From positions 140,866 to 204,865 of the forward strand of contig MDYQ01000081.1 of NCBI GenBank assembly GCA_003024175.1: a stretch of DNA of 64,000 nt, given 5' to 3'. Origin of the DNA: Planoprotostelium fungivorum (Eukaryota; Evosea; Variosea; Cavosteliida; Cavosteliaceae). The notes beneath the pieces are model-generated. The model was given only the letters and a program-made list of their open reading frames with translations, did no database searches and was not told the DNA's origin. The translations under genes were made by a program, and so were the position numbers. Shown in pieces: positions 12,885-52,693 of this stretch. Positions within the stretch are counted from its first letter, which is position 1; every line of letters begins with the position of its first letter.

Positions 12885-13143
12885 AACAAGGGATAACTTG
12901 GATGCTTTTACTCCCGTGATGGAGGGAATTATTGACCTTCACACGTATATTATGTTTTACCTAGTTGGTATTGTTGTGTTTGTGTTTGTGGCGGTAGGCC
13001 TTACTCTTCAGGAATTTTACTACAACACCCCGTACCGGGGCCGCCCCAAACGAATGGCGGTAGCCCGGGTAGTTCATTCTACCTGGTTGGAACTTGTTTG
13101 GACGTTAACCCCGTTGTTGGTACTTGTGTCAATTGCGGTTCCA
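12885..13143 (+). pseudogene. NUMT: nuclear fragment of mitochondrial cox2 (5' part)
   Basis: This stretch reads DAFTPVMEGIIDLHTYIMFYLVGIV and on to VSIAV, the first part of cytochrome oxidase subunit 2. It then leaves the gene abruptly at 13143 into unrelated AT-richer sequence. Compared with the mitochondrial copies at 14204 onward it has about seven substitutions in roughly 220 bp, including two that change the residue (E to K, A to V). It is embedded in nuclear-type sequence next to a nuclear tRNA. These facts point to an old nuclear insertion, not functional mtDNA. It also retains a few codons upstream of the MEGIID methionine that are absent from the mitochondrial contigs. Confidence 0.75.
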
Positions 13144-13581
13144 GAATCAGACCGAACTTGCGACGTCAGTTTCCGGAAATGACATGGGTAGAATTTATTT
13201 AATGGTGGTCCATTTATTGTTTATTGATTATCCATCCTATGCATGTCGCGTTTTTCATCGCATTGAGCAAACATGGCATGAAATGAATATAATTTAATAC
13301 AAAGCAGCTCATCGTGTCTTTAGATAACAACAGTTCTATGGTACAGGAGGAACGAGAGATTCTATATTCCGCTAGAGAGCCTGGTCTCCAAGGACGACTG
13401 TATCATGGGGGTGAAGGAGAAACACGCTCCATAATGCTCTCACCTCAAGACAATAATATACACCCCCAATAGGGCTTCTAGTGGCGAGTGGAGGAATTGT
13501 GATGCGTGTGTAAGACGTGATGTGTGCGTGCCAAAAAAGTCACAAACAGTTCAAGGAAAATTACTCCAGCACGCATCACTC
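13144..13581. other. Nuclear-type non-coding sequence ending at an assembly gap
   Basis: About 440 bp, lower in G+C than the mtDNA, with no supported gene. It stops at the N at 13582, where mitochondrial sequence begins. Confidence 0.5.
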
Positions 13582-14203: not shown

Positions 14204-14890
14204 ATGGAGGGAATTATTGACCTCCACACGTATATTATGTTTTACCTAGTTGGTATTGTTGTGTTTGTGTTTGTGGCGGTAGGCCTTACTCTTCAGGAAT
14301 TTTACTATAACACCCCGTACCGGGGCCGTCCCGAACGAATGGCGGCAGCCCGGGTAGTTCATTCTACCTGGTTGGAACTTGTTTGGACGTTAACCCCATT
14401 GTTGGTACTTGTGTCGATTGCGGTTCCATCTTTTGCGTTGCTATACTCAATGGAAGAAAAATTTGACGTTGCTCTTACCCTTAAGGTGGTGGGCCACCAG
14501 TGGTACTGGGAGTATCAATATGCGTTTACTGACGCGGTACACGGCGATGTATACTTTGGGTTTGACTCGTATATGATTCCGGAGGGGGACTTACCAACTG
14601 GGGGGTTACGTCTACTTGAACCCGACACAACCGTAGTACTTCCGGTGTACCACCGGCTTCGGGTGTTGACTACCTCGAACGATGTAATTCACTCGTGGGC
14701 GCTACCCGCGGCGGGAGTAAAAATGGATGCTATCCCCGGTCGGTTAAACCAGGTTAACCTTTATTTTAATCGACCTGGTCTTTTTTACGGTCAGTGTTCT
14801 GAGTTGTGCGGAGTAAACCACGGGTTTATGCCGATCGCGGTAAAAGCGTTAGAAGTGTCGCGGTTTCGAGAGTGGGCCCACAATGTTTAA
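14204..14890 (+). CDS. cox2: Cytochrome c oxidase subunit 2 (mitochondrial)
   Basis: Encodes the CuA subunit that receives electrons from cytochrome c in the inner membrane. 228 residues are visible: two membrane helices (IMFYLVGIVVFVFVAVGL and WLELVWTLTPLLVLVSIAV), the aromatic HQWYWEYQY segment, and the CuA site CSELCGVNHGFMPI with all ligands. The contig starts exactly at MEGIID, so the usual 20 or so residues before it are cut off; part of them survives in the NUMT at 12901. The stop overlaps the nad4L start by 8 nt. Partial repeats at 13583-14194 (with a one-G deletion near 13903 that breaks the frame) and 15238-15623 are contig overlaps. Confidence 0.97.
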   Translation: MEGIIDLHTYIMFYLVGIVVFVFVAVGLTLQEFYYNTPYRGRPERMAAARVVHSTWLELVWTLTPLLVLVSIAVPSFALLYSMEEKFDVALTLKVVGHQWYWEYQYAFTDAVHGDVYFGFDSYMIPEGDLPTGGLRLLEPDTTVVLPVYHRLRVLTTSNDVIHSWALPAAGVKMDAIPGRLNQVNLYFNRPGLFYGQCSELCGVNHGFMPIAVKALEVSRFREWAHNV

Positions 14891-27595: not shown

Positions 27596-30353
27596 TTGAG
27601 TTGTCTCTTTTGGGTGGGTTATTAGCCGGGTTGTTTGGGGCCGCCCTGTGGGGGGGTCCTGGGGTGTGGCCGTTATGGGGGGTCACCCTAGTGGTGTGGG
27701 CCACCGTGGTGGTTCCCACCGGGAACTGGGGAACCACCGTGGGGGTGGACCCCCCCACGGTGTACTGGGGGGCCCCCCACGGGGGGACTACCCTGGCCGA
27801 TTTTACTTTTTTGTTAGTAGTTGCCACCGCCGGGGTGGCCGGGGTAGTTCTCCAGGGGCGTCCCCACGGGGTAGAACAACTACTTCTTGGTGGGATCGCG
27901 GTGGGGGCGGGCTGGGCCACCCTCCACACGGACCATCTTGTAGTGTTGTATCTTAACCTCGAGTTGCAAGCGCTTGCGTTGTACACCCTTGTTGGGTATC
28001 ACCGTCACCACACCCCCGCCATGGACGCGGCTCTTCGATACCTACTGGCGGGGCCGTTAGTTTCTGGGTTTACCCTGTACGGATTTGTTGGGGTGTACCT
28101 CCACACCGGTGGGTTTACCCTTGGGGAGGGAACCCCACCGGAAAGTCCTTGGATTACCGCGATGGTTCTGTTTAAGTTAGGAGCTTTTCCATTTTGGTTT
28201 TGGACACCTCCGGTGTATGACCCCCTTGACTGGGGAACTCTTGCCCTAGTGGTAGGCCCGGCAAAGGTTAACCTTTGGTGGCTGGCCACGGTGGGGTTAG
28301 CTCCGGTAGTGGGGACCACTACGGTAGCCGTCGCCGCGGTGGGCTCGGTGGTGGTTGGCGCGGTTGGAGGATACTTTCAGGTGACTGCGGCGGGAGTTCT
28401 AGCGTATTCCGGGGTGATCAACNCCCACCGGGAACTGGGGAACCACCGTGGGGGTGGACACCCCCACGGTGTACTGGGGGGCCCCCCACGGGGGGACTAC
28501 CCTGGCCGATTTTACTTTTTTGTTAGTAGTTGCCACCGCCGGGGTGGCCGGGGTAGTTCTCCAGGGGCGTCCCCACGGGGTAGAACAACTACTTCTTGGT
28601 GGGATCGCGGTGGGGGCGGGCTGGGCCACCCTCCACACGGACCATCTTGTAGTGTTGTATCTTAACCTCGAGTTGCAAGCGCTTGCGTTGTACACCCTTG
28701 TTGGGTATCACCGTCACCACACCCCCGCCATGGACGCGGCTCTTCGATACCTACTGGCGGGGTCGTTAGTTTCTGGGTTTACCCTGTACGGGTTTGTTGG
28801 GGTGTACCTCCACACCGGTGGGTTTACCCTTGGGGAGGGAACCCCACCGGAAAGTCCTTGGATTACCGCGATGGTTCTGTTTAAGTTAGGAGCTTTTCCA
28901 TTTTGGTTTTGGACACCTCCGGTGTATGACCCCCTTGACTGGGGAACTCTTGCCCTAGTGGTAGGCCCGGCAAAGGTTAACCTTTGGTGGCTGGCCACGG
29001 TGGGGTTAGCTCCGGTAGTGGGGACCACTACGGTAGCCGTCGCCGCGGTGGGCTCGGTGGTGGTTGGCGCGGTTGGAGGATACTTTCAGGTGACTGCGGC
29101 GGGAGTTCTAGNGGGGCCGCCCTGTGGGGGGGTCCTGGGGTGTGGCCGTTATGGGGGGTCACCCTAGTGGTGTGGGCCACCGTGGTGGTTCCCACCGGGA
29201 ACTGGGGAACCACCGTGGGGGTGGACACCCCCACGGTGTACTGGGGGGCCCCCCACGGGGGGACTACCCTGGCCGATTTTACTTTTTTGTTAGTAGTTGC
29301 CACCGCCGGGGTGGCCGGGGTAGTTCTCCAGGGGCGTCCCCACGGGGTAGAACAACTACTTCTTGGTGGGATCGCGGTGGGGGCGGGCTGGGCCACCCTC
29401 CACACGGACCATCTTGTAGTGTTGTATCTTAACCTCGAGTTGCAAGCGCTTGCGTTGTACACCCTTGTTGGGTATCACCGTCACCACACCCCCGCCATGG
29501 ACGCGGCTCTTCGATACCTACTGGCGGGGACGTTAGTTTCTGGGTTTACCCTGTACGGATTTGTTGGGGTGTACCTCCACACCGGTGGGTTTACCCTTGG
29601 GGAGGGAACCCCACCGGAAAGTCCTTGGATTACCGCGATGGTTCTGTTTAAGTTAGGAGCTTTTCCATTTTGGTTTTGGACACCTCCGGTGTATGACCCC
29701 CTTGACTGGGGAACTCTTGCCCTAGTGGTAGGCCCGGCAAAGGTTAACCTTTGGTGGCTGGCCACGGTGGGGTTAGCTCCGGTAGTGGGGACCACTACGG
29801 TAGCCGTCGCCGCGGTGGGCTCGGTGGGGGTTGGCGCGGTTGGAGGATACTTTCAGGTGACTGCGGCGGGAGTTCTAGCGTATTCCGGGGTGATCAACGC
29901 GGGGTATCTTTTAGTTTTAACTTGGGCGGGCACCCCCTGGGGGTTGCGTACTACTTGGGGGTGTACCTGGTAGGAACCGCCCTTGTGGTGGCGGTTGCCT
30001 CCCCTATGGTGGCGACCGGGGTGGCCCACCTGTCGGGGTGGGTCGCTCTTGGAGCGGCCACCCCACTACTTTTGTACTACGGGGTACTTAACCTGGGTGG
30101 GCTTCCGGTGTGGCCCGGATTTTTTGGTAAAATCTGGCTTGTTACCTGGGGGGTTACCCTGGGGTGGGGTCTAGTAGTTGTAGTAGTAGCGGCTTCTATC
30201 TTACCGGCGGTATACTACGTGGGGCTAGCGGTGGCCGCCCTCTTTGAGGGGGGCCGACCCGGCCGACCTGGGCGGTGGTCTCCCCTGACGGGGGTGGCTC
30301 TTACCCTTGGGGGGACCGCTCTTGTTGCTAGTGTAACCGTTTTTGTAACGTAG
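27592..30353 (+). CDS. nad2: NADH dehydrogenase subunit 2 (mitochondrial), split and with one frameshift
   Basis: ATG at 27592 overlaps the nad4 stop. Pieces are 27592-28422, 28424-29111 (contained) and 29113-30353; merged length is about 430 residues. Nad2-type segments are YLLAGPLVSGFTLYGFVGVY, LFKLGAFPFWFWTPPVYD and AYSGVINAGYLL, then YYGVLNLGGLPVWPGFFGKIWLV. The last block lies in a different frame from the rest: a one-base change is needed in the CACCCCCTGGGGG run near 29932-29945, present only once in the window, so probably a sequencing error. The TAG stop (30351-30353) falls inside the following tRNA. Confidence 0.9.
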
Positions 30354-30418
30354 CTCAATGGCTCCAAGAGCATCGGCTTGCTACGCCGGTGGCACAGGTT
30401 CAATTCCTGTCGTTTTGG
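30344..30418 (+). tRNA. trnS: Mitochondrial tRNA-Ser(GCU)-like, candidate for 5' editing
   Basis: A cloverleaf of 75 nt with a good D stem (GCTC/GAGC), an anticodon loop TTGCTAC (anticodon GCT) and T arm ACAGG/CCTGT. The acceptor 5' strand TGTAACG pairs with CGTTTTG at positions 4-7 only; positions 1-3 are U:G, G:U and U:U. The variable loop has only four bases, odd for a serine tRNA. It overlaps the nad2 stop. A contig-overlap copy lies at 31013-31087. Confidence 0.75.
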
Positions 30419-30419
30419 A

Positions 30420-32195
30420 ATGAACTCAACCGAATTAACACGTTTTATCACCGGGTGGCGCGGGTATCTTCTAGGTCAGCGACACCAATGGTACCCACAT
30501 CAACGAGTGGGGGGAACCCGTACGGGTTGGCTTGTTGCCGCTCCGGTGCACCAGGTGCACCAGTTTAAACGGGTGGCACATCTTTTGGGAGGGTTATTTG
30601 TTGGTGGGGCAACCTTGTGGTTGTACGGAGTGGCTCAGATCAACATGGGAGAACGACCTCGTCGGGAGTCTGACTACCAAGACCATCCTAACGAGTTTTG
30701 TTGGGGACGATCTTGGGCGTTGTGGTGGTCCGGCCAATTAAGTAACTCGGTCTATATTCGTTGGCGTCGATCCCGAACAGATCGAGCGGCTGTACGACTA
30801 GGTCGACCCTACCCGTATCGTCGGGTGGTCCGCCGCCGGCGAAGTCNTGTAGTAGTAGCGGCTTCTATCTTACCGGCGGTATACTACGTGGGGCTAGCGG
30901 TGGCCGCCCTCTTTGAGGGGGGCCGACCCGGCCGACCTGGGCGGTGGTCTCCCCTGACGGGGGTGGCTCTTACCCTTGGGGGGACCGCTCTTGTTGCTAG
31001 TGTAACCGTTTTTGTAACGTAGCTCAATGGCTCCAAGAGCATCGGCTTGCTACGCCGGTGGCACAGGTTCAATTCCTGTCGTTTTGGAATGAACTCAACC
31101 GAATTAACACGTTTTATCACCGGGTGGCGCGGGTATCTTCTAGGTCAGCGACACCAATGGTACCCACATCAACGAGTGGGGGAACCCGTACGGGTTGGCT
31201 TGTTGCCGCTCCGGTGCACCAGGTGCACCAGTTTAAACGGGTGGCACATCTTTTGGGAGGGTTATTTGTTGGTGGGGCAACCTTGTGGTTGTACGGAGTG
31301 GCTCAGATCAACATGGGAGAACGACCTCGTCGGGAGTCTGACTACCAAGACCATCCTAACGAGTTTTGTTGGGGACGATCTTGGGCGTTGTGGTGGTCCG
31401 GCCAATTAAGTAACTCGGTCTATATTCGTTGGCGTCGATCCCGAACAGATCGAGCGGCTGTACGACTAGGTCGACCCTACCCGTATCGTCGGGTGGTCCG
31501 CCGCCGGCGAAGTCGACGGCGACCTCGCCTAACTCGACGGTGGGCTCGCCTTCGCCGGGGGGGGCGATTACCTCGTGGGTGTTACCGGGCGCCCCCCGTG
31601 GTTCAAGCGTTGACCCGATGGTGGCGTCAACGTGTGCGTCAACCCGGGTGGGACCACCCTGTTGAATCAACCCCGTTGTACCGACGTCGTTGGGGAGGTT
31701 TCCCGGTGGTGGGCCCAGCTGGGCTAACACCCGGGTGGGTTCGAATTTGGACCACCCGGGTGGTCCAACGCCATCGTCGACGTCGTGGGTGGACCCCCCC
31801 TGGTGGGGTTCGCCGGTGGGGTACCCCGGTGGGGTGGACTCGACCGACTTATCGTCCGCGTCGGCCGGCTCGTCGCCACCGTCGGCGAACATCTCGAACT
31901 ACTCGGTGGTTGTCACGGTTTCAACAATGGCCTAGCTTTTTTCCCGGGGTGGTAGCCACTACCGCGACTGGGGTAACTTCTGTTTTGATGGAGGAAGCTC
32001 ACGCGGTGGGATTGCCCACGGTGTTGTGGGCCACCGGGGTGGCCCCCGGACTAACTCCGTGGGCGGTGGCATGGCCGGCCACCCGGTTAGACGGGCTAGC
32101 TCGGTGGTTAACCCTCGTTTGGGGGTGGTTTCGAGGAGCTGCCCTAGTGGGGGCTGCCGTTCGCCGCCTAAGCGTGGGTCTTTCTCACCGGAGTA
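30420..32195 (+). CDS. rps2: Mitochondrial ribosomal protein S2, with Arg-rich insertion
   Basis: The N-terminal part (from ATG 30420; copy at 31089) contains [32 protein letters not shown] and [16 protein letters not shown], matching the S2 pattern of HQ-x-WNP, LFVG and RW-GG-LTN. The C-terminal part contains [34 protein letters not shown], the S2 region ending in the PIPGNDD-like turn. Between them lies a long Arg/Trp-rich insertion of about 150 residues. The copy after 30848 has a one-G deletion near 31180 relative to 30510, so the N-terminal frame is intact only in the first copy. The end is unclear: the frame has no stop before atp9, while a TAG in another frame sits at the tRNA-Leu boundary (32194-32196). 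Confidence 0.75.
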
Positions 32196-32277
32196 GTGCG
32201 CCTGGCGAAATGGTAGACGCGATGGACTTAAAATCCATTCAGACTTACTGGTGTCGGTTCAAGTCCGACGGCGACGA
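32196..32277 (+). tRNA. trnL: Mitochondrial tRNA-Leu(UAA), candidate for 5' editing
   Basis: An 82-nt class II tRNA with anticodon loop CTTAAAA. Acceptor strands GTGCGCC and GGCGACG pair at positions 4-7; positions 1, 2 and 3 are G:G, U:C and G:A mismatches. T arm GTCGG/CCGAC is perfect. Confidence 0.9.
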
Positions 32278-33721: not shown

Positions 33722-33793
33722 GGGGGTGTAGTTTACCTGGTAAAACGGTTGATTTGCAGTCAGTAGAAACGAGTTCAAGTCTCGTCACCTCCA
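33722..33793 (+). tRNA. trnA: Mitochondrial tRNA-Ala(UGC)
   Basis: 72 nt, anticodon loop TTTGCAG. The acceptor GGGGGTG/CACCTCC pairs throughout, with G3:U70, the universal alanine identity pair. This one needs no 5' editing. The copy at 34569-34640 is a contig overlap. Confidence 0.92.
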
Positions 33794-34680
33794 GGGTTGT
33801 TTAGGTTACTACTTGGTTTGGGTTTACCCACACATGAAAAATAAATTTAGCAAACTTTTCGAAAAAGAAGTAACTCAGCTTTTTGAAGGTTGGGAAAAAG
33901 CCGATGTTGGACGAGTAGTTTCCGTGGGAGACGGAATTGTTCGAGTAGCCGGTGTAGCTGGAGTTCGCTCGGGGGAGCTACTTCACATTGACACCCGAAC
34001 CGGGGTGGTAAGTGCGATGGCTCTTAACCTTGAAAAAGATTNCTTTATGGTGGACTCTATTCCGTTTACTCCGTACTACTTGGTAAAAGATGTGTGGGGG
34101 TTTGTTTTGTTTGGATTTTTCTATGGCTTCTTTGTTTTTTTTGCCCCTAACTTGTTAGGTCACCCGGACAACTACATTTTAGCTAACCCGATGGTGACTC
34201 CAGCACATATTGTGCCGGAGTGGTATTTTTTACCCTTTTACGCTATTCTACGAGCGGTTCCCGACAAGTTTGGGGGTGTACTTGCGATGGCGGGGGGAAT
34301 CCTAGTTCTTTTGGCGTTGCCTTACCTTTCGGTGGCAGATCTTCGAAGCATGCAGTTTCGTCCTTTGTCTCGGGTGGTATTCTGGCTGTGGGTTGGAAAC
34401 TTTTTATTTCTAGGACTTATTGGTGGACTTCCAGCGAAGGCGGTTCTTGCGCCAACCCTTATTGTTGCGGTGTTGGTGTATTTCGGGTATCTACTAGTAG
34501 TTCAGCCTGGACTAGACCGTTTAGAAAACTTTCTAGGTCGTCATCGTTAATCACGGTGTACATGTATGGGGGGTGTAGTTTACCTGGTAAAACGGTTGAT
34601 TTGCAGTCAGTAGAAACGAGTTCAAGTCTCGTCACCTCCAGGGTTGTTTAGGTTACTACTTGGTTTGGGTTTACCCACAC

Positions 34681-36207: not shown

Positions 36208-36278
36208 AGTAAAGTAGTTCAAAGGTAGAACAACGGTCTCCAAAACCGTCGATAGGGGTTCAACTCCCCTCTTTGGTG
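36208..36278 (+). tRNA. trnW: Mitochondrial tRNA-Trp(CCA), candidate for 5' editing
   Basis: 71 nt, anticodon loop CTCCAAA. Acceptor AGTAAAG/CTTTGGT pairs at 4-7 and position 1; position 2 is G:G and position 3 is U:G. CCA as the only Trp anticodon fits TGA being used as a stop in this mtDNA. Confidence 0.9.
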
Positions 36279-46364: not shown

Positions 46365-47016
46365 TCCACCCCGGGGTGTTCCCCACCTGGGGGGGGTCAC
46401 CGGCCCTGCCCGGTGGGCCCGACCGGGGGTACCCGGCGGGCACCGCCGGTGTTGGATCACCGGGCGGGGCCGGTCGGTAACTCGAACCACCGGGTTAAAC
46501 CGAATGGGTTTTCGTCGGGCTGCCCTAGCAGGTTGGTGTTGGGGGGTCACCCAGCCTCGTGGTAAGCGGTCGCCGCCCGGTGGGGTTATCCCCGGTGGGG
46601 TCTAGAGTGGTTCGTTTGGCTGGGGTTGGATTTAAAGGTTTTCACCAGGGGGGTACCCTAGTAATGGGGTTGGGCTACTCCCACTACGTGGCAACCGCCA
46701 CGGTGGGGGTAGTTCGAGCCCGAACCGCCGGGGTGGTGGCCCCCACCGGGGTGGCAGCCCGGGTGGTTCATCTTCGTCGGCCGGACCCGTACAAAGGACG
46801 TGGTTTATACCTGGATGGTCAAAAACCAACTACCAAAGCGGGTAAGCGGCGCTAGTTTGTGGTGGCGCCCCACCCGGGGTGGGCGTNACCTTCAAGGGTC
46901 CGGTTGGGTGGGGACCACCCGGGGAGTTCGCTATTTAGTTCCCCGGGGCTGGGACATCACCCGGTGGGCCCACCCGGTGCGGGGGTCCGCTCGGGCAATC
47001 GGATGGAGCTGGTTAA

Positions 47017-48245: not shown

Positions 48246-49938
48246 CCCGGGTGTTACTTGTTCTACGGGTGGGGTTGTGGTGGTTGGGGGTGGCCACCCT
48301 GGGGGGGATGGCTTGGGTTTGGCTTTCCCGGGGGGAGATCGTTGTTGTTGACCACCCTGCAGGGTGGGCCCCTCCCACCACGGGGGTGGTCTTGCTTTGG
48401 GTGGCTGCCACCGCGGTGGGGTGGCCCTAGTGGAGGCCCTTCGTCGCGGTCCCCACGGGGTGGTCACCTGGTGGACCCGGGGGGTTGCCTGGACCACCGC
48501 GGTGGTAGCAACCGCGGGGGTCACCACCGCGGTGGGGGTGGTTAGTGGTCGGATGGTTCTTCGGGTGGGGGCCTGGCAGGTGACCGGAGTGGACTATCTA
48601 CGATGGTGTGCCGAGGAGGTAGCCCAACTTGGTGGGGATCCCACCCGGGTGACCCCGTGGGACCTACTAAACCGGGAACCTACCATCCTGGCGGAGGCCA
48701 CCCGACCGGTGCCGCCGGTGCCGCCCCAAGCACCCCCACCCACCGTGTGGGACTGGATGGTGGCCCACCCGGTACTAACTGTCACCGCGGTGGTCACCAT
48801 CGTGGTGGTGACCACCGCGGTGTGGTGGTGGTGGCCCCGGGGCGGCGGGGGTGGGGGCGGCGGGTCACGAGAGCAGCTGCCGCTCACCCCACCCCCTACC
48901 CTTAACCCCTTGGTGAACCAAGCTTCTACCCAACACATTGTAACACTTGCCGATGTGGTAGAGTCCCTAAATTATGAGTATCTTGACAGCGACCAAAAAA
49001 GACTACTTAAAACACTGACACAAACGTCGACTACCCCCACCCTTAACGTTCCGTTTTCTCCTAGGGCAACACTAGCTCATCTCACTACTTATCAAAGCAG
49101 ATTTGCTGGGGCTTCTGTGTTGTTAAAATCGTTATCCGAGAATAACCCACCCCCGGAGAAAGTACACGAGCACGCCCTAATTGTAAACTTTGTAACCGCG
49201 TATCACAGACACCACTGCCGGGCGGAAAAAAGTGTTTGTGAAACTGTTGCTAACCTAGAGGAAACCTCTTCGGAGGTTCGAACTCTACTAACAGGTTACC
49301 TTAACCGAAAGGAAGACCCTGTACGCTGGGCTATTGCAACTGAGCAGGTATTACCCTTCTTGGCGAGTTGTCCCCACCGAATGGCGGTAACTCTTGCACA
49401 GTTTGTTCCTCCGGAGTATGGAGTTTCTCTTATGCGGGAATTGGCCGTTGCTGATGATCCTGACGCCCCTCGTAACGACGTGTTAGAACGTACCCACGCT
49501 ACTGTTACATCTGCGGAGTATAGGAGTCTTTCCCATGAGCTGTGTCTTCTACGTGTGTGTAAAGACGTACAATTTCGAGAAAAATTAAAATTTGACGTAC
49601 TTACCGCATTACGCCAAAGACCTGGAACTGAAAACTGTGGGATTGCGTGGGGTAACCTTTGGATTAATCACCAACTCGAAAAACCTGTACTATGTTCTAG
49701 TTTAAATAAACTTATTGACAATGGTCGAAAAGTTAGCGGAACCGTTGAAAGTAATCAATTACGTCTTCGAGAAGAACAAAGAGAAGCCCGTATTTTTTAT
49801 GGTTTGGCAACAGGCGATGTTGAAGACAAAAAACAGAACATGCTACAACACCTAAACGCTGTTCTAGGTGATGAAGCGGGTGAGGAGGTGGAAACATTAT
49901 TTTCTACTACGTTTATTAGAGACATCTTTATGGAGTAG
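48246..49938 (+). CDS. Large mitochondrial ORF of unknown function, membrane N-terminus and soluble C-terminus
   Basis: A 524-residue frame (48364-49938) is preceded by an overlapping hydrophobic frame starting near 48246 (LVLRVGLWWLGVATLGGMAW), so an indel near 48420 may divide one gene. Up to about residue 180 the product is G+C-coded, with hydrophobic spans (VLTVTAVVTIVVVTTAVWWWW) and a Gly run. After that, base composition drops and the product becomes a normal-looking helical protein of about 340 residues (LADVVESLNYEYLDSDQKRLLKTL ... FYGLATGDVEDKKQNMLQHL ... FIRDIFME). No family recognised. Ends TAG at 49936-49938. Confidence 0.6.
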
Positions 49939-50143: not shown

Positions 50144-50214
50144 GTAGACGTAGTGTAATGGTAACACTTACGCTTTGGGAGCGTACAATGCAAGTTCAAT
50201 CCTTGCCGTCCCGA
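50144..50214 (+). tRNA. trnP: Mitochondrial tRNA-Pro(UGG), candidate for 5' editing
   Basis: 71 nt, anticodon loop TTTGGGA. Acceptor GTAGACG/CGTCCCG pairs at 4-7; positions 1-3 are G:G, U:C and A:C mismatches. D arm GTGT/ACAC and T arm GCAAG/CTTGC are sound. Confidence 0.9.
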
Positions 50215-50217
50215 AGG

Positions 50218-50289
50218 GCGGGGGTGGAGTAACTGGTAACTCAACAGACTCATGATCTGCAGATGCAAGTTCAATCCTTGCCCCCCGCG
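50218..50289 (+). tRNA. trnM: Mitochondrial tRNA with CAU anticodon (Met, or Ile with modified C)
   Basis: 72 nt, anticodon loop CTCATGA. Acceptor GCGGGGG/CCCCCGC is fully paired. It does not show the three G:C pairs of initiator anticodon stems, so elongator Met or tRNA-Ile(CAU) is possible. Its last two bases overlap trnK. Confidence 0.85.
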
Positions 50290-50359
50290 TGGTATAGCTT
50301 AGTGGTTAAAGCACCAGCCTTTTAAGCTGTGGACTCGGGTTCGATTCCCGGTACCCGTA
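50288..50359 (+). tRNA. trnK: Mitochondrial tRNA-Lys(UUU), candidate for 5' editing
   Basis: 72 nt, anticodon loop CTTTTAA. Acceptor CGTGGTA/TACCCGT pairs at 4-7; positions 1-3 are C:U, G:G and U:C. Two of those three bases belong to the end of the upstream tRNA. Confidence 0.92.
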
Positions 50360-50423
50360 TTGCGTAGTGGTAACGCACCAGTTTGCAAAACTGTCCACCC
50401 GGGTTCGATTCCCGGTACGGTCT
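50353..50423 (+). tRNA. trnC: Mitochondrial tRNA-Cys(GCA), candidate for 5' editing
   Basis: 71 nt, anticodon loop TTGCAAA. Acceptor ACCCGTA/TACGGTC pairs at 3-7; positions 1 and 2 are A:C and C:U. Its entire 5' acceptor strand coincides with the 3' end of trnK, a 7-base overlap. Confidence 0.9.
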
Positions 50424-50424
50424 A

Positions 50425-50506
50425 GGTCGTCTGGCGAAATGGTAGCCGCGAATGACTCAAAATCATTTGTGTTGTACACGTACAAGTTCAACTCTTGTGA
50501 CGACCA
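50425..50506 (+). tRNA. trnL: Mitochondrial tRNA-Leu(CAA)
   Basis: 82-nt class II tRNA, anticodon loop CTCAAAA, acceptor GGTCGTC/GACGACC fully paired. Confidence 0.92.
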
Positions 50507-50508
50507 CC

Positions 50509-50581
50509 ACCACGGTAGCTTAATCGGTTAGAGTTTCGCGCTTCGAACGCGGCGGTGCAAGTTCAAGTCTTGCCCGTGGTA
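50509..50581 (+). tRNA. trnR: Mitochondrial tRNA-Arg(UCG)
   Basis: 73 nt, anticodon loop CTTCGAA, acceptor ACCACGG/CCGTGGT fully paired, T arm GCAAG/CTTGC. Confidence 0.9.
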
Positions 50582-50654
50582 GCGGGTATAGTTCAGTTGG
50601 TCAAAACACTAGTTTGTGGCACTAGAGCCGTAAGTTCAAATCTTGCTACCCGCC
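50582..50654 (+). tRNA. trnH: Mitochondrial tRNA-His(GUG)
   Basis: 73 nt, anticodon loop TTGTGGC, acceptor GCGGGTA/TACCCGC fully paired, discriminator C. The base before position 1 is A, so the G-1 identity nucleotide is not encoded. Confidence 0.9.
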
Positions 50655-50726
50655 TAAGGTATCGCCAAGTGGTAAGGCGCCAGGCTTTGAACCTGGCACA
50701 CGCAGGTTCGATCCCTGCTACCTTAA
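50655..50726 (+). tRNA. trnQ: Mitochondrial tRNA-Gln(UUG)
   Basis: 72 nt, anticodon loop CTTTGAA, acceptor TAAGGTA/TACCTTA fully paired. It abuts trnH and trnE with no spacer. Confidence 0.92.
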
Positions 50727-50800
50727 ACCCTCTTCGTCTAACCCGGTTAGGACGCCGCCCTTTCACGGCGGAAACACGGGTTCAACCCCCGTAGAGAACA
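50727..50800 (+). tRNA. trnE: Mitochondrial tRNA-Glu(UUC), candidate for 5' editing
   Basis: 74 nt, anticodon loop CTTTCAC. Acceptor ACCCTCT/AGAGAAC pairs at 4-7; positions 1-3 are A:C, C:A and C:A. Confidence 0.92.
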
Positions 50801-50811
50801 ACCCCGCGCGG

Positions 50812-52289
50812 TGGGGCCATCCTTCGAGTTTGACTCTGGCTCCGAGTGAACGCGTACGCAAAGCTTTAACACATGCAAGTTGAACGTAGGAACACCTAAG
50901 TAGCACACCGGTGAGTACACGGTTCAGACTACCTCTTTGGGCGGGCTGGGTCCCCCACCACTCCGGTGGGTAATCCCAGTGACCAAGGTTAACCCCCGCC
51001 AAAGAGCTGACTCCCAAGATTAGGTAGTTGGTCCGGGTAACAGCCGACCAAGCCGAAGATCTTTAGTGGCCCTGAGAGGAGACCCCACCACAGGGGGACT
51101 GAAACAACGCCCCAACTTAACCAAAGGCAGCAGTGGGGAATCTTGAACAACTACCGTGGGGTAGGTTCAGCTTTGTCGTGTGGGTGACCACACGGTGTGA
51201 CTCTCCCTACCGGACCGGCCCAACGTGGCCGGCGCTCGGCCGAGGATCCCACCGTGGGGGCCGGCTACGGTTGTCCCACCCACCGGGGACCCCCGCGGTG
51301 CCATCACCGCTGGGATAGCCTCCCCGGAAAAGTCCCGGCTAAATTCGTGCCAGCAGCCGCGGTAACACGGAAGGGGCAAGCGTTACTCGTACGGACTGGG
51401 TGTAAAGCGTTTGTAGGTGAACCCCCGACGGGGGGGTACCGGGTGAGAACCCCGCCGTGCCCCCCGCACCGGGTGGGGTCACCACCAAGTTCAACGTACT
51501 CTTGATGGAGGGGTGGAATCCACAGAGATCAATGGGGACGTTCCAACGCGAAAGCATTGTAGCTGGGGTGTACCGCCACTGAAAAACGAAAGCGTGGGGA
51601 GCCAACCGGATTAGATACCCGGGTAGTCCACGCCGTCAACGATGGGTACCACCGGTTGCCACCGGAACGCTAACGCGGGAGTACCCCACCTGAGTAGTAC
51701 GGCGGCAACGCTGAAATTCAAAGAGATTGACGGAGGCCAACAAAAGTGGTGGAACATGTGGTTTAATCCGATACAACGCGTAACACCTTACCACGGGTCG
51801 ATATCACCCTGGACCCCGCCGGTGTGGACGGTCCCGCCAGGAGAGCCGGAGTTGCATGGCTGTCGTCAGTTCGTGCCGTAAGGTGTTTGGTTTAGTCCTT
51901 TCAACGACCGCAATCCGCCCGGGGTGTTATCCATCCCGGTCCCACTGAGGTTTGGTGATCGCGCCGCGGCTGGGGCCGAGCTCCTACGCCGGGGTCACCA
52001 CTCAAACGGAATCACCCGGAAGACGTCAAGTCGTCATGGCCCTTATCCCGTGGGCAACACACGTGTTACAACGTGGGGGCCACCCCGCTGGAACGGCGCA
52101 AGCCCGACCCAAACGGTAACCCCTCACCTAGTTCTCACGGGGGTCTGCAAACGACCCCCCTACGTTGGAATCGCTAGTAATCGAGGATCAGCACGCCTTG
52201 GTGAAGGTTTTCGGGCCTAGCACACACCGCCCGTCACACCATGGAAGTTAAACGCACCCTAACGGGCAGGGCTACCCTGGTAAGTTGGA
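50812..52289 (+). rRNA. rns: Mitochondrial small-subunit rRNA, 3' end missing
   Basis: Begins near GAGTTTGACTCTGGCTC at 50825. The 530 loop GTGCCAGCAGC is at 51347, the 790 loop GATTAGATACCCGGGTAG at about 51609, the 900 region (TTCAAAGAGATTGACGG) at about 51717, and the decoding-site segment ACACACCGCCCGTCACACC at about 52222. The sequence follows helix 44 until about 52289 and then turns into nuclear-type DNA. The GTCGTAACAAGG segment and helix 45 are absent, so the gene is cut at the chimeric junction. Confidence 0.93.
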
Positions 52290-52693
52290 AATATACTTTG
52301 TTCCATCGATACCCCGTTGCCTTCTCACCACCGATAATTCTGCAGACAGAACGGTCCGCATCACGGTCGTATTCTGATCCCTGGCGCACCAGAAGCTTAG
52401 GCTAGAAGTCGCCCCGGCGGACACCATTCTCCTACACAAGACAGAACTGCTGAAAATTATCCCACAGTGTCAATAGAATGGCCAATTTTCAGTCGAATCT
52501 CCACATCGTTCTGCGATATGTGTGAAGACCTTCGGCTCAAAACGTTGATTTTGAGGAGAAGCCGCACGAAGGCAGCTTCTGAACGAATATTTCGAGCTCG
52601 ATGTGAAGTTTCCCTCACTTTCCGGTTCTTCATGATGTTGTAACTTACTTCGATCATAATCACGAAGACGCACTACGCAAACCCATTACCATC
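52290..52693. other. Nuclear-type intergenic sequence after the mtDNA junction
   Basis: About 400 bp of balanced base composition between the broken rRNA and the GH17 gene. No gene seen; the proximal part should hold the promoter of the gene at 52694. Confidence 0.45.

Follow-up and report, generated by a model that had tools for sequence, protein, structure and literature searches.

Seven of the 13 distinct tRNA genes that we recognized in a mitochondrial segment of the Planoprotostelium fungivorum assembly carry mismatches in the acceptor stem, all of them within its first three base pairs. To judge from their sequences, these seven tRNAs are very probably repaired by 5' tRNA editing, as a first-pass annotation of the same DNA had proposed; that interpretation drew support from the published limit on edited positions, from Thg1 and Thg1-like genes in the nuclear genome, and from the inadequacy of C-to-U editing as an alternative. 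Editing of this kind is already known. The feature beyond the annotation that is worth following is a 7-nt overlap between the genes for tRNA-Lys and tRNA-Cys, both of them predicted substrates, and this overlap matters more than the editing itself.

Acceptor-stem mismatches in mitochondrial tRNA genes

The window, which is the whole 64,000-nucleotide stretch of DNA analyzed here, covers positions 140866 to 204865 of a contig of 204,865 bases (C11) in an assembly of 36.9 Mb and 471 contigs. The mitochondrial tRNA cloverleaves, all on the + strand, were segmented by hand with guidance from ARAGORN and Rfam, and a pair was called mismatched when it was neither Watson-Crick nor G-U. Positions 1, 2, and 3 are all mismatched in trnP(UGG) (50144 to 50214; GUA against CCG at 70 to 72), trnK(UUU) (50288 to 50359; CGU), trnE(UUC) (50727 to 50800; ACC), and trnL(UAA) (32196 to 32277; GUG). 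In trnC(GCA) (50353 to 50423; U73), positions 1 and 2 are affected. The mismatch is at position 3 only in trnS(GCU) (30344 to 30418; duplicate at 31013 to 31087), where positions 1 and 2 are of the G-U type, and at position 2 only in trnW(CCA) (36208 to 36278), where position 3 is of that type. This segmentation bore out what the first-pass annotation had said of trnP, trnK, trnE, and trnC, and also its placement of trnL(UAA), trnS, and trnW within the same limit. Acceptor stems are fully paired in trnM(CAU) (50218 to 50289), trnL(CAA) (50425 to 50506), trnR(UCG) (50509 to 50581), trnH(GUG) (50582 to 50654), and trnQ(UUG) (50655 to 50726), as had also been claimed; trnA(UGC) (33722 to 33793; duplicate at 34569 to 34640), which had been put in the same group, is paired but with a G3-U70 wobble.

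Altogether, 16 of 39 pairs are mismatched at positions 1 to 3, versus 0 of 52 at positions 4 to 7 (Fisher p = 1.4e-7). Under a gene-wise model that scatters the mismatches of each gene among its seven acceptor pairs, the probability of finding every one at positions 1 to 3 is 1.7e-8. T stems contain no mismatches, and anticodon stems contain none at positions 28 to 31 in the 13 genes. The earlier claim that mismatches are absent from every other part of the stems thus holds for acceptor positions 4 to 7 but fails at two other pairs: 27:43 is mismatched in Met (A.C), Lys (C.U), and Cys (C.U), and 13:22 is mismatched in Leu(UAA), Leu(CAA), His, and Gln. The 27:43 mismatches, which would stay unmended in three tRNAs, count against the editing interpretation, although the error in the earlier claim is not fatal to it.

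Two control sets were scored for their acceptor pairs, with 27:43 and 13:22 left out. Nuclear tRNAs from the same assembly (n = 11; 10 chosen across score classes from 63 matches, plus the tRNA-Ser of the window) gave the opposite pattern, with 0 of 33 pairs mismatched at positions 1 to 3 and 3 of 44 at positions 4 to 7. Among 78 distinct alphaproteobacterial tRNAs (1 further tRNA was skipped), mismatches were rare throughout, at 2, 0, 1, 1, 1, 0, and 1 for positions 1 to 7, a count biased toward pairing because gene starts were set for best pairing.

A permissive Rfam scan (E up to 5) of positions 13000 to 52330 revealed no tRNA beyond the known ones, with trnC masked there by trnK, and all RNA families other than tRNA and small-subunit rRNA fell below their cut-offs in that scan. 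ARAGORN additionally called a tRNA-Val at 31688 and tRNA-Gly genes at 46381 and 47071; these are absent from the Rfam matches, appear to be fortuitous folds of GC-rich DNA, and were left out of the counts.

Confinement of mismatches to acceptor pairs 1 to 3 is described as the mark of 5' tRNA editing (PMC4284800, section 2.2.1), a process in which Thg1-like proteins restore positions 1 to 3 by 3'-to-5' addition once the encoded nucleotides have been taken off (PMC4284800, section 2.2.1; PMC6471195, section 3.4). By this mechanism, the mismatched nucleotides at positions 1 to 3 would be removed from the 5' end of the tRNA, and a Thg1-like protein would re-add these positions in the 3'-to-5' direction with positions 70 to 72 as the template. 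The mature nucleotides predicted for positions 1 to 3 are CGG in tRNA-Pro, ACG in tRNA-Lys, GAC in tRNA-Cys, CGU in tRNA-Leu(UAA), GUU in tRNA-Glu, CAA in tRNA-Ser, and ACC or ACU in tRNA-Trp.

Overlapping tRNA genes

Two overlaps within the tRNA cluster were absent from the first-pass annotation. Positions 72 and 73 of trnM (the latter G73) are also positions 1 and 2 of trnK, a 2-nt overlap, and positions 67 to 73 of trnK are also positions 1 to 7 of trnC, a 7-nt overlap at 50353 to 50359 on the + strand (ACCCGTA). The latter is known from one assembled copy. Scored alone, trnC reaches 49.3 bits and is therefore not an artifact of trnK. Base by base, 50353 and 50354 are paired in Lys only, 50355 is paired in both tRNAs, 50356 to 50358 are paired in Cys only, and 50359 is paired in Cys and is also the Lys discriminator, A73. 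Pairing is thus kept at Lys 67 to 69 and Cys 4 to 7 and lost only at Cys 1 and 2, which are editable, and at Lys 70 to 72, which are templating; in other words, the shared bases pair where editing cannot rewrite them and fail where they are editable or merely serve as template. The seven nucleotides are accounted for as three free 5' positions of Cys, the templating positions 70 to 72 of Lys, and one discriminator that suits both. With positions 1 to 3 freed from encoding, trnK could shift its start into trnM, and trnC could likewise shift into trnK.

One transcript cannot give both tRNA-Lys and tRNA-Cys whole. The simplest route would be alternative cuts of separate transcripts, followed by 5' editing of each tRNA. 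If the cut fell after Lys 73, Cys would begin at position 8 and need seven added nucleotides, a route that the pairing kept at Cys 4 to 7 argues against. In a further variant of 5' editing, the transcript is cut once, immediately 3' of Cys 3; Cys 1 to 3 would then be rebuilt 3' to 5', and Lys would end at position 69 and have positions 70 to 73 rebuilt 5' to 3'. In its favor, the junction 50355/50356 appears to be the only site that would spare, in one transcript, every base paired at a non-editable position. We nevertheless regard a single cut as rather unlikely, given that 5' and 3' editing are described as not having been identified together in one organism (PMC4284800) and that alternative processing of separate transcripts suffices equally. 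If the single-cut route were true, both kinds of editing would operate within one organelle.

On balance, we tentatively suggest, as a proposal whose chances lie a little short of even, that 5' editing permits the Lys/Cys overlap: the shared bases would serve either Lys 67 to 69 or Cys 4 to 7, both genes would need 3'-to-5' resynthesis of positions 1 to 3, and the two products would arise either from alternative cuts or from a single cleavage at the Cys 3/4 junction, with Cys then repaired at its 5' end and Lys at its 3' end. The overlap can discriminate between these pathways because the predicted mature tRNA-Lys ends and tRNA-Cys intermediates differ. Alternative cuts with 5' editing predict a Lys 3' end of ...UACCCGUA-CCA, and 3' repair predicts ...UACC followed by a non-encoded ACG. 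Whether 5' editing processes overlapping tRNAs is left undecided in section 5.2 of PMC4284800, where a one-nucleotide overlap in Dictyostelium discoideum is put forward as a chance to learn whether 5' editing handles overlaps; the Lys/Cys locus is thus a test case for that question. A search of titles and abstracts, weighted toward open-access papers, found no report that links 5' editing to a tRNA overlap of 7 nt and none on the mitochondrial tRNAs of this genome.

Thg1-family genes and tRNA-His

The first-pass annotation had proposed searching the nuclear genome for Thg1-like proteins, and that search identified three Thg1-family loci, representing at least one Thg1 gene (on contig C181) and at least two Thg1-like genes (on C119 and C451). 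All three proteins score above the Pfam cut-off for Thg1. The C181 protein is a canonical Thg1, with an HINNLYN stretch, both Thg1 Pfam domains, and 3otb as its best PDB match (E 7.2e-78). The C119 and C451 proteins match the N-terminal domain only, and their best match is the Thg1-like protein 4kgk (E 4.6e-32 and 1.6e-19, respectively), which we take to be bacterial. Both keep the RLDG and SDE motifs, presumably the catalytic motifs of the family.

Mitochondrial presequences are rich in arginine and poor in acidic residues. The spliced model of the C451 protein begins MIGRCHSICNRQTLYRTDRLHGNVSLRR, which is arginine-rich and acid-poor, with 6 basic and 2 acidic residues among the first 35; the corresponding stretch of the C119 protein has 4 basic and 7 acidic residues, with an acidic stretch at its start. 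From the composition of this one N-terminus, whose splice sites and start were themselves inferred from the DNA and for which an unspliced start is possible, we infer that the C451 protein may be the mitochondrial editing enzyme. Counting against the editing interpretation, Thg1-like proteins are also present where no 5' tRNA editing is known.

A templated 3'-to-5' enzyme would also be consistent with the features of tRNA-His. The base at position -1 of trnH is the discriminator of trnR (A73), so that no G-1 is encoded, and C73 is kept without it, which is not proof of such an enzyme. In D. discoideum, G-1 is added opposite C73 by TLP2, and tRNA-His of Acanthamoeba is without G-1, according to the account in PMC6471195.

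Mitochondrial segment and quality of the assembly

The mitochondrial segment occupies positions 12919 to 52308 (+) of the window, with nuclear-looking DNA on both sides, in which ARAGORN found three tRNA-Ser(AGA) genes, and with a nuclear-type stretch at about 13144 to 13581 inside it. By Pfam (10 of 20 submitted frames above a cut-off), it carries cox2, nad4L, three frames of the nad2/4/5 family, cob, atp1, rps12, rpl2, and rpl14. The mitochondrial small-subunit rRNA gene (50818 to 52308, +) ends at the junction with nuclear DNA. Mitochondrial DNA from 13000 to 52308 is GC-rich (up to 65% per 4-kb window). A 524-aa open frame just upstream of the tRNA cluster (48364 to 49938) is without a Pfam match, as are most of the long frames with repeat-like residues in the ribosomal-protein region. 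Perfect palindromes (arm 7, loop of at most 5) number 76 between 13583 and 52308, about four times the Markov-shuffle mean of 17.1, a count inflated by unmerged duplicate stretches. Many are GC-rich, of the CCACCCGGGTGG type, and these short palindromes are reminiscent of mobile palindromic elements.

The segment contains 19 single-N joins between 13582 and 46887. At 17 of these (all except 13582 and 46182), the flanking sequence is repeated across the N with 99.0 to 99.9% identity; these joins are contig ends that were abutted and left unmerged, a scaffolding artifact that duplicates parts of cox2, the nad genes, cob, trnS, trnA, and ribosomal protein genes. Because trnS and trnA are present twice owing to these unmerged overlaps, each was entered once in all counts. 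The left end of the contig with the tRNA cluster shares 690 nt with the neighboring mitochondrial contig at 99.57% identity, and the cluster itself is present in a single copy in the assembly.

The segment begins on the left with a 225-nt piece of cox2 (12919 to 13143) that is 96.9% identical to cox2 at 14204, and we take this piece to be an older nuclear copy. Other mitochondrial pieces in nuclear surroundings are one of 79% identity on contig C37 (10159 to 10325) and an rRNA-cox1 piece on contig C425, which is joined to nuclear-looking DNA. At the right edge, the contig with the tRNA cluster runs on into nuclear DNA, and the 348-nt 3' part of the rRNA gene (51961 to 52308) has 16 differences from the C425 copy (95.4% identity). 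At 6 of these differences, a bacterial 16S rRNA has the C425 base and not that of the window, and the reverse is true at 1. Given these differences and the junction, the last contig may be mitochondrial DNA joined to a nuclear copy, or itself a nuclear copy. At 7 of the 16 differences, the window has C and C425 has T, with the C425 base backed by both bacterial 16S sequences at three; such differences could be changes in a nuclear copy, GC-driven changes in mitochondrial DNA, or C-to-U editing sites. The nad1 and cox3 families had no match anywhere in the assembly, which indicates that much mitochondrial DNA is absent from it, and cox1 is found only as fragments, on C425.

Alternative explanations

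Comparison with alphaproteobacterial tRNAs, a guide to which strand of a mismatched stem would be replaced, gave a mixed answer. Pro 70 to 73 equal those of all four alphaproteobacterial tRNA-Pro sequences, and Pro 1 to 3 differ; more weakly, Ser T70 and Cys C72 have the bacterial state at mismatched pairs, and their 5' partners differ. Trp G2 and Leu(UAA) G1, both on the 5' side, point in the opposite direction, having the bacterial state where their 3' partners do not. The comparison favors neither strand for Glu and Lys, and Cys U71 fits neither. A 5' base that looks conserved, as in Trp and Leu(UAA), would suit 3' editing, the removal of positions 70 to 73 and their resynthesis with the 5' strand as template. 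This process is at work in animal mitochondria whose tRNA genes overlap, and overlapping tRNAs elsewhere are resolved in this manner (PMC4284800). We consider 3' editing improbable here. Lys 67 to 69 still pair with 4 to 6 inside the overlap, which would be needless if the whole overlap were regenerated, and the trnM acceptor is intact, with 72 paired to 1, though its 3' end falls inside trnK. Discriminators agree with the bacterial controls for Pro, Cys, Glu, Ser, Trp, Leu, His, and Ala, whereas Met G73 and Gln A73 are unlike the commonest bacterial bases. The presence of Thg1-like genes likewise weighs against 3' editing.

The nuclear scaffold, the N joins, the old cox2 fragment, and the divergent rRNA end invite the explanation that the mismatches arose through assembly errors or through the decay of mitochondrial sequence copied into the nucleus. 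Random change, however, would not spare acceptor positions 4 to 7, the T stems, and positions 29 to 31 in 13 of 13 genes; furthermore, cob and atp1 both retain intact frames, and trnS and trnA are identical between both copies of their overlaps, so that this origin has very little probability. Similarly hard to credit is that the mismatches persist and the tRNAs function unedited: this mitochondrion apparently tolerates mismatches at 27:43 and 13:22, but the terminal three pairs would all be open in four tRNAs, and the sharp boundary between positions 3 and 4 would lack a cause. C-to-U or other base-substitution editing has the faintest prospects. It would suffice for trnE taken alone, all three of whose mismatches are among the 5 of 16 that C-to-U changes would mend; the other 11, including every G.G, U.U, G.A, U.C, and C.U pair, could not be mended in this way, and C-to-U editing is thus not the explanation.

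Relation to known editing systems

Among sequences available for following conservation, no close mitochondrial relative was recognized: cob matched 64 loci in viral contigs, which were examined by tRNA count, atp1 matched 0 there, and the best 80 of 585 cob loci in genome contigs were titled bacteria, nearly all of them alphaproteobacteria. Comparison of uL4, cox2, cob, and atp1 with PDB sequences gave no phylogenetic placement. If correct, 5' editing in this organism adds one mitochondrion to the known patchy list and brings predicted substrates and candidate enzymes together in one genome.

The closest parallels are found in other systems with 5' editing. Mitochondria of Acanthamoeba castellanii show the same limit to the first three pairs, in 12 of 15 tRNAs compared with 7 of 13 here, and Thg1-like genes are reported there as they were found here (PMC4284800, section 2.2.1); the pattern described here is known from DNA alone. 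No tRNA overlap is described for A. castellanii in that section, whereas overlaps of 2 and 7 nt occur here. D. discoideum, with Thg1, TLP2, TLP3, and TLP4, combines a canonical Thg1 with Thg1-like proteins as in the present genome, having three Thg1-like genes (PMC6471195, section 3.4) versus the at least two known here from genes alone. Its mitochondrial tRNA-His has C73, as here (PMC6471195), and its tRNA overlap is 1 nt (PMC4284800, section 5.2). The same three-position limit applies to 5' editing in Physarum, Polysphondylium, and chytrid fungi (PMC4284800, section 2.2.1), which differ from the present case in lineage and in overlap. In animal mitochondria with 3' editing, same-strand tRNA neighbors share bases, as they do here, through overlaps of one to six nucleotides, and the upstream 3' end is rebuilt (PMC4284800); here, in contrast, it is the downstream 5' ends that are mismatched, and upstream positions 67 to 69 are still paired.
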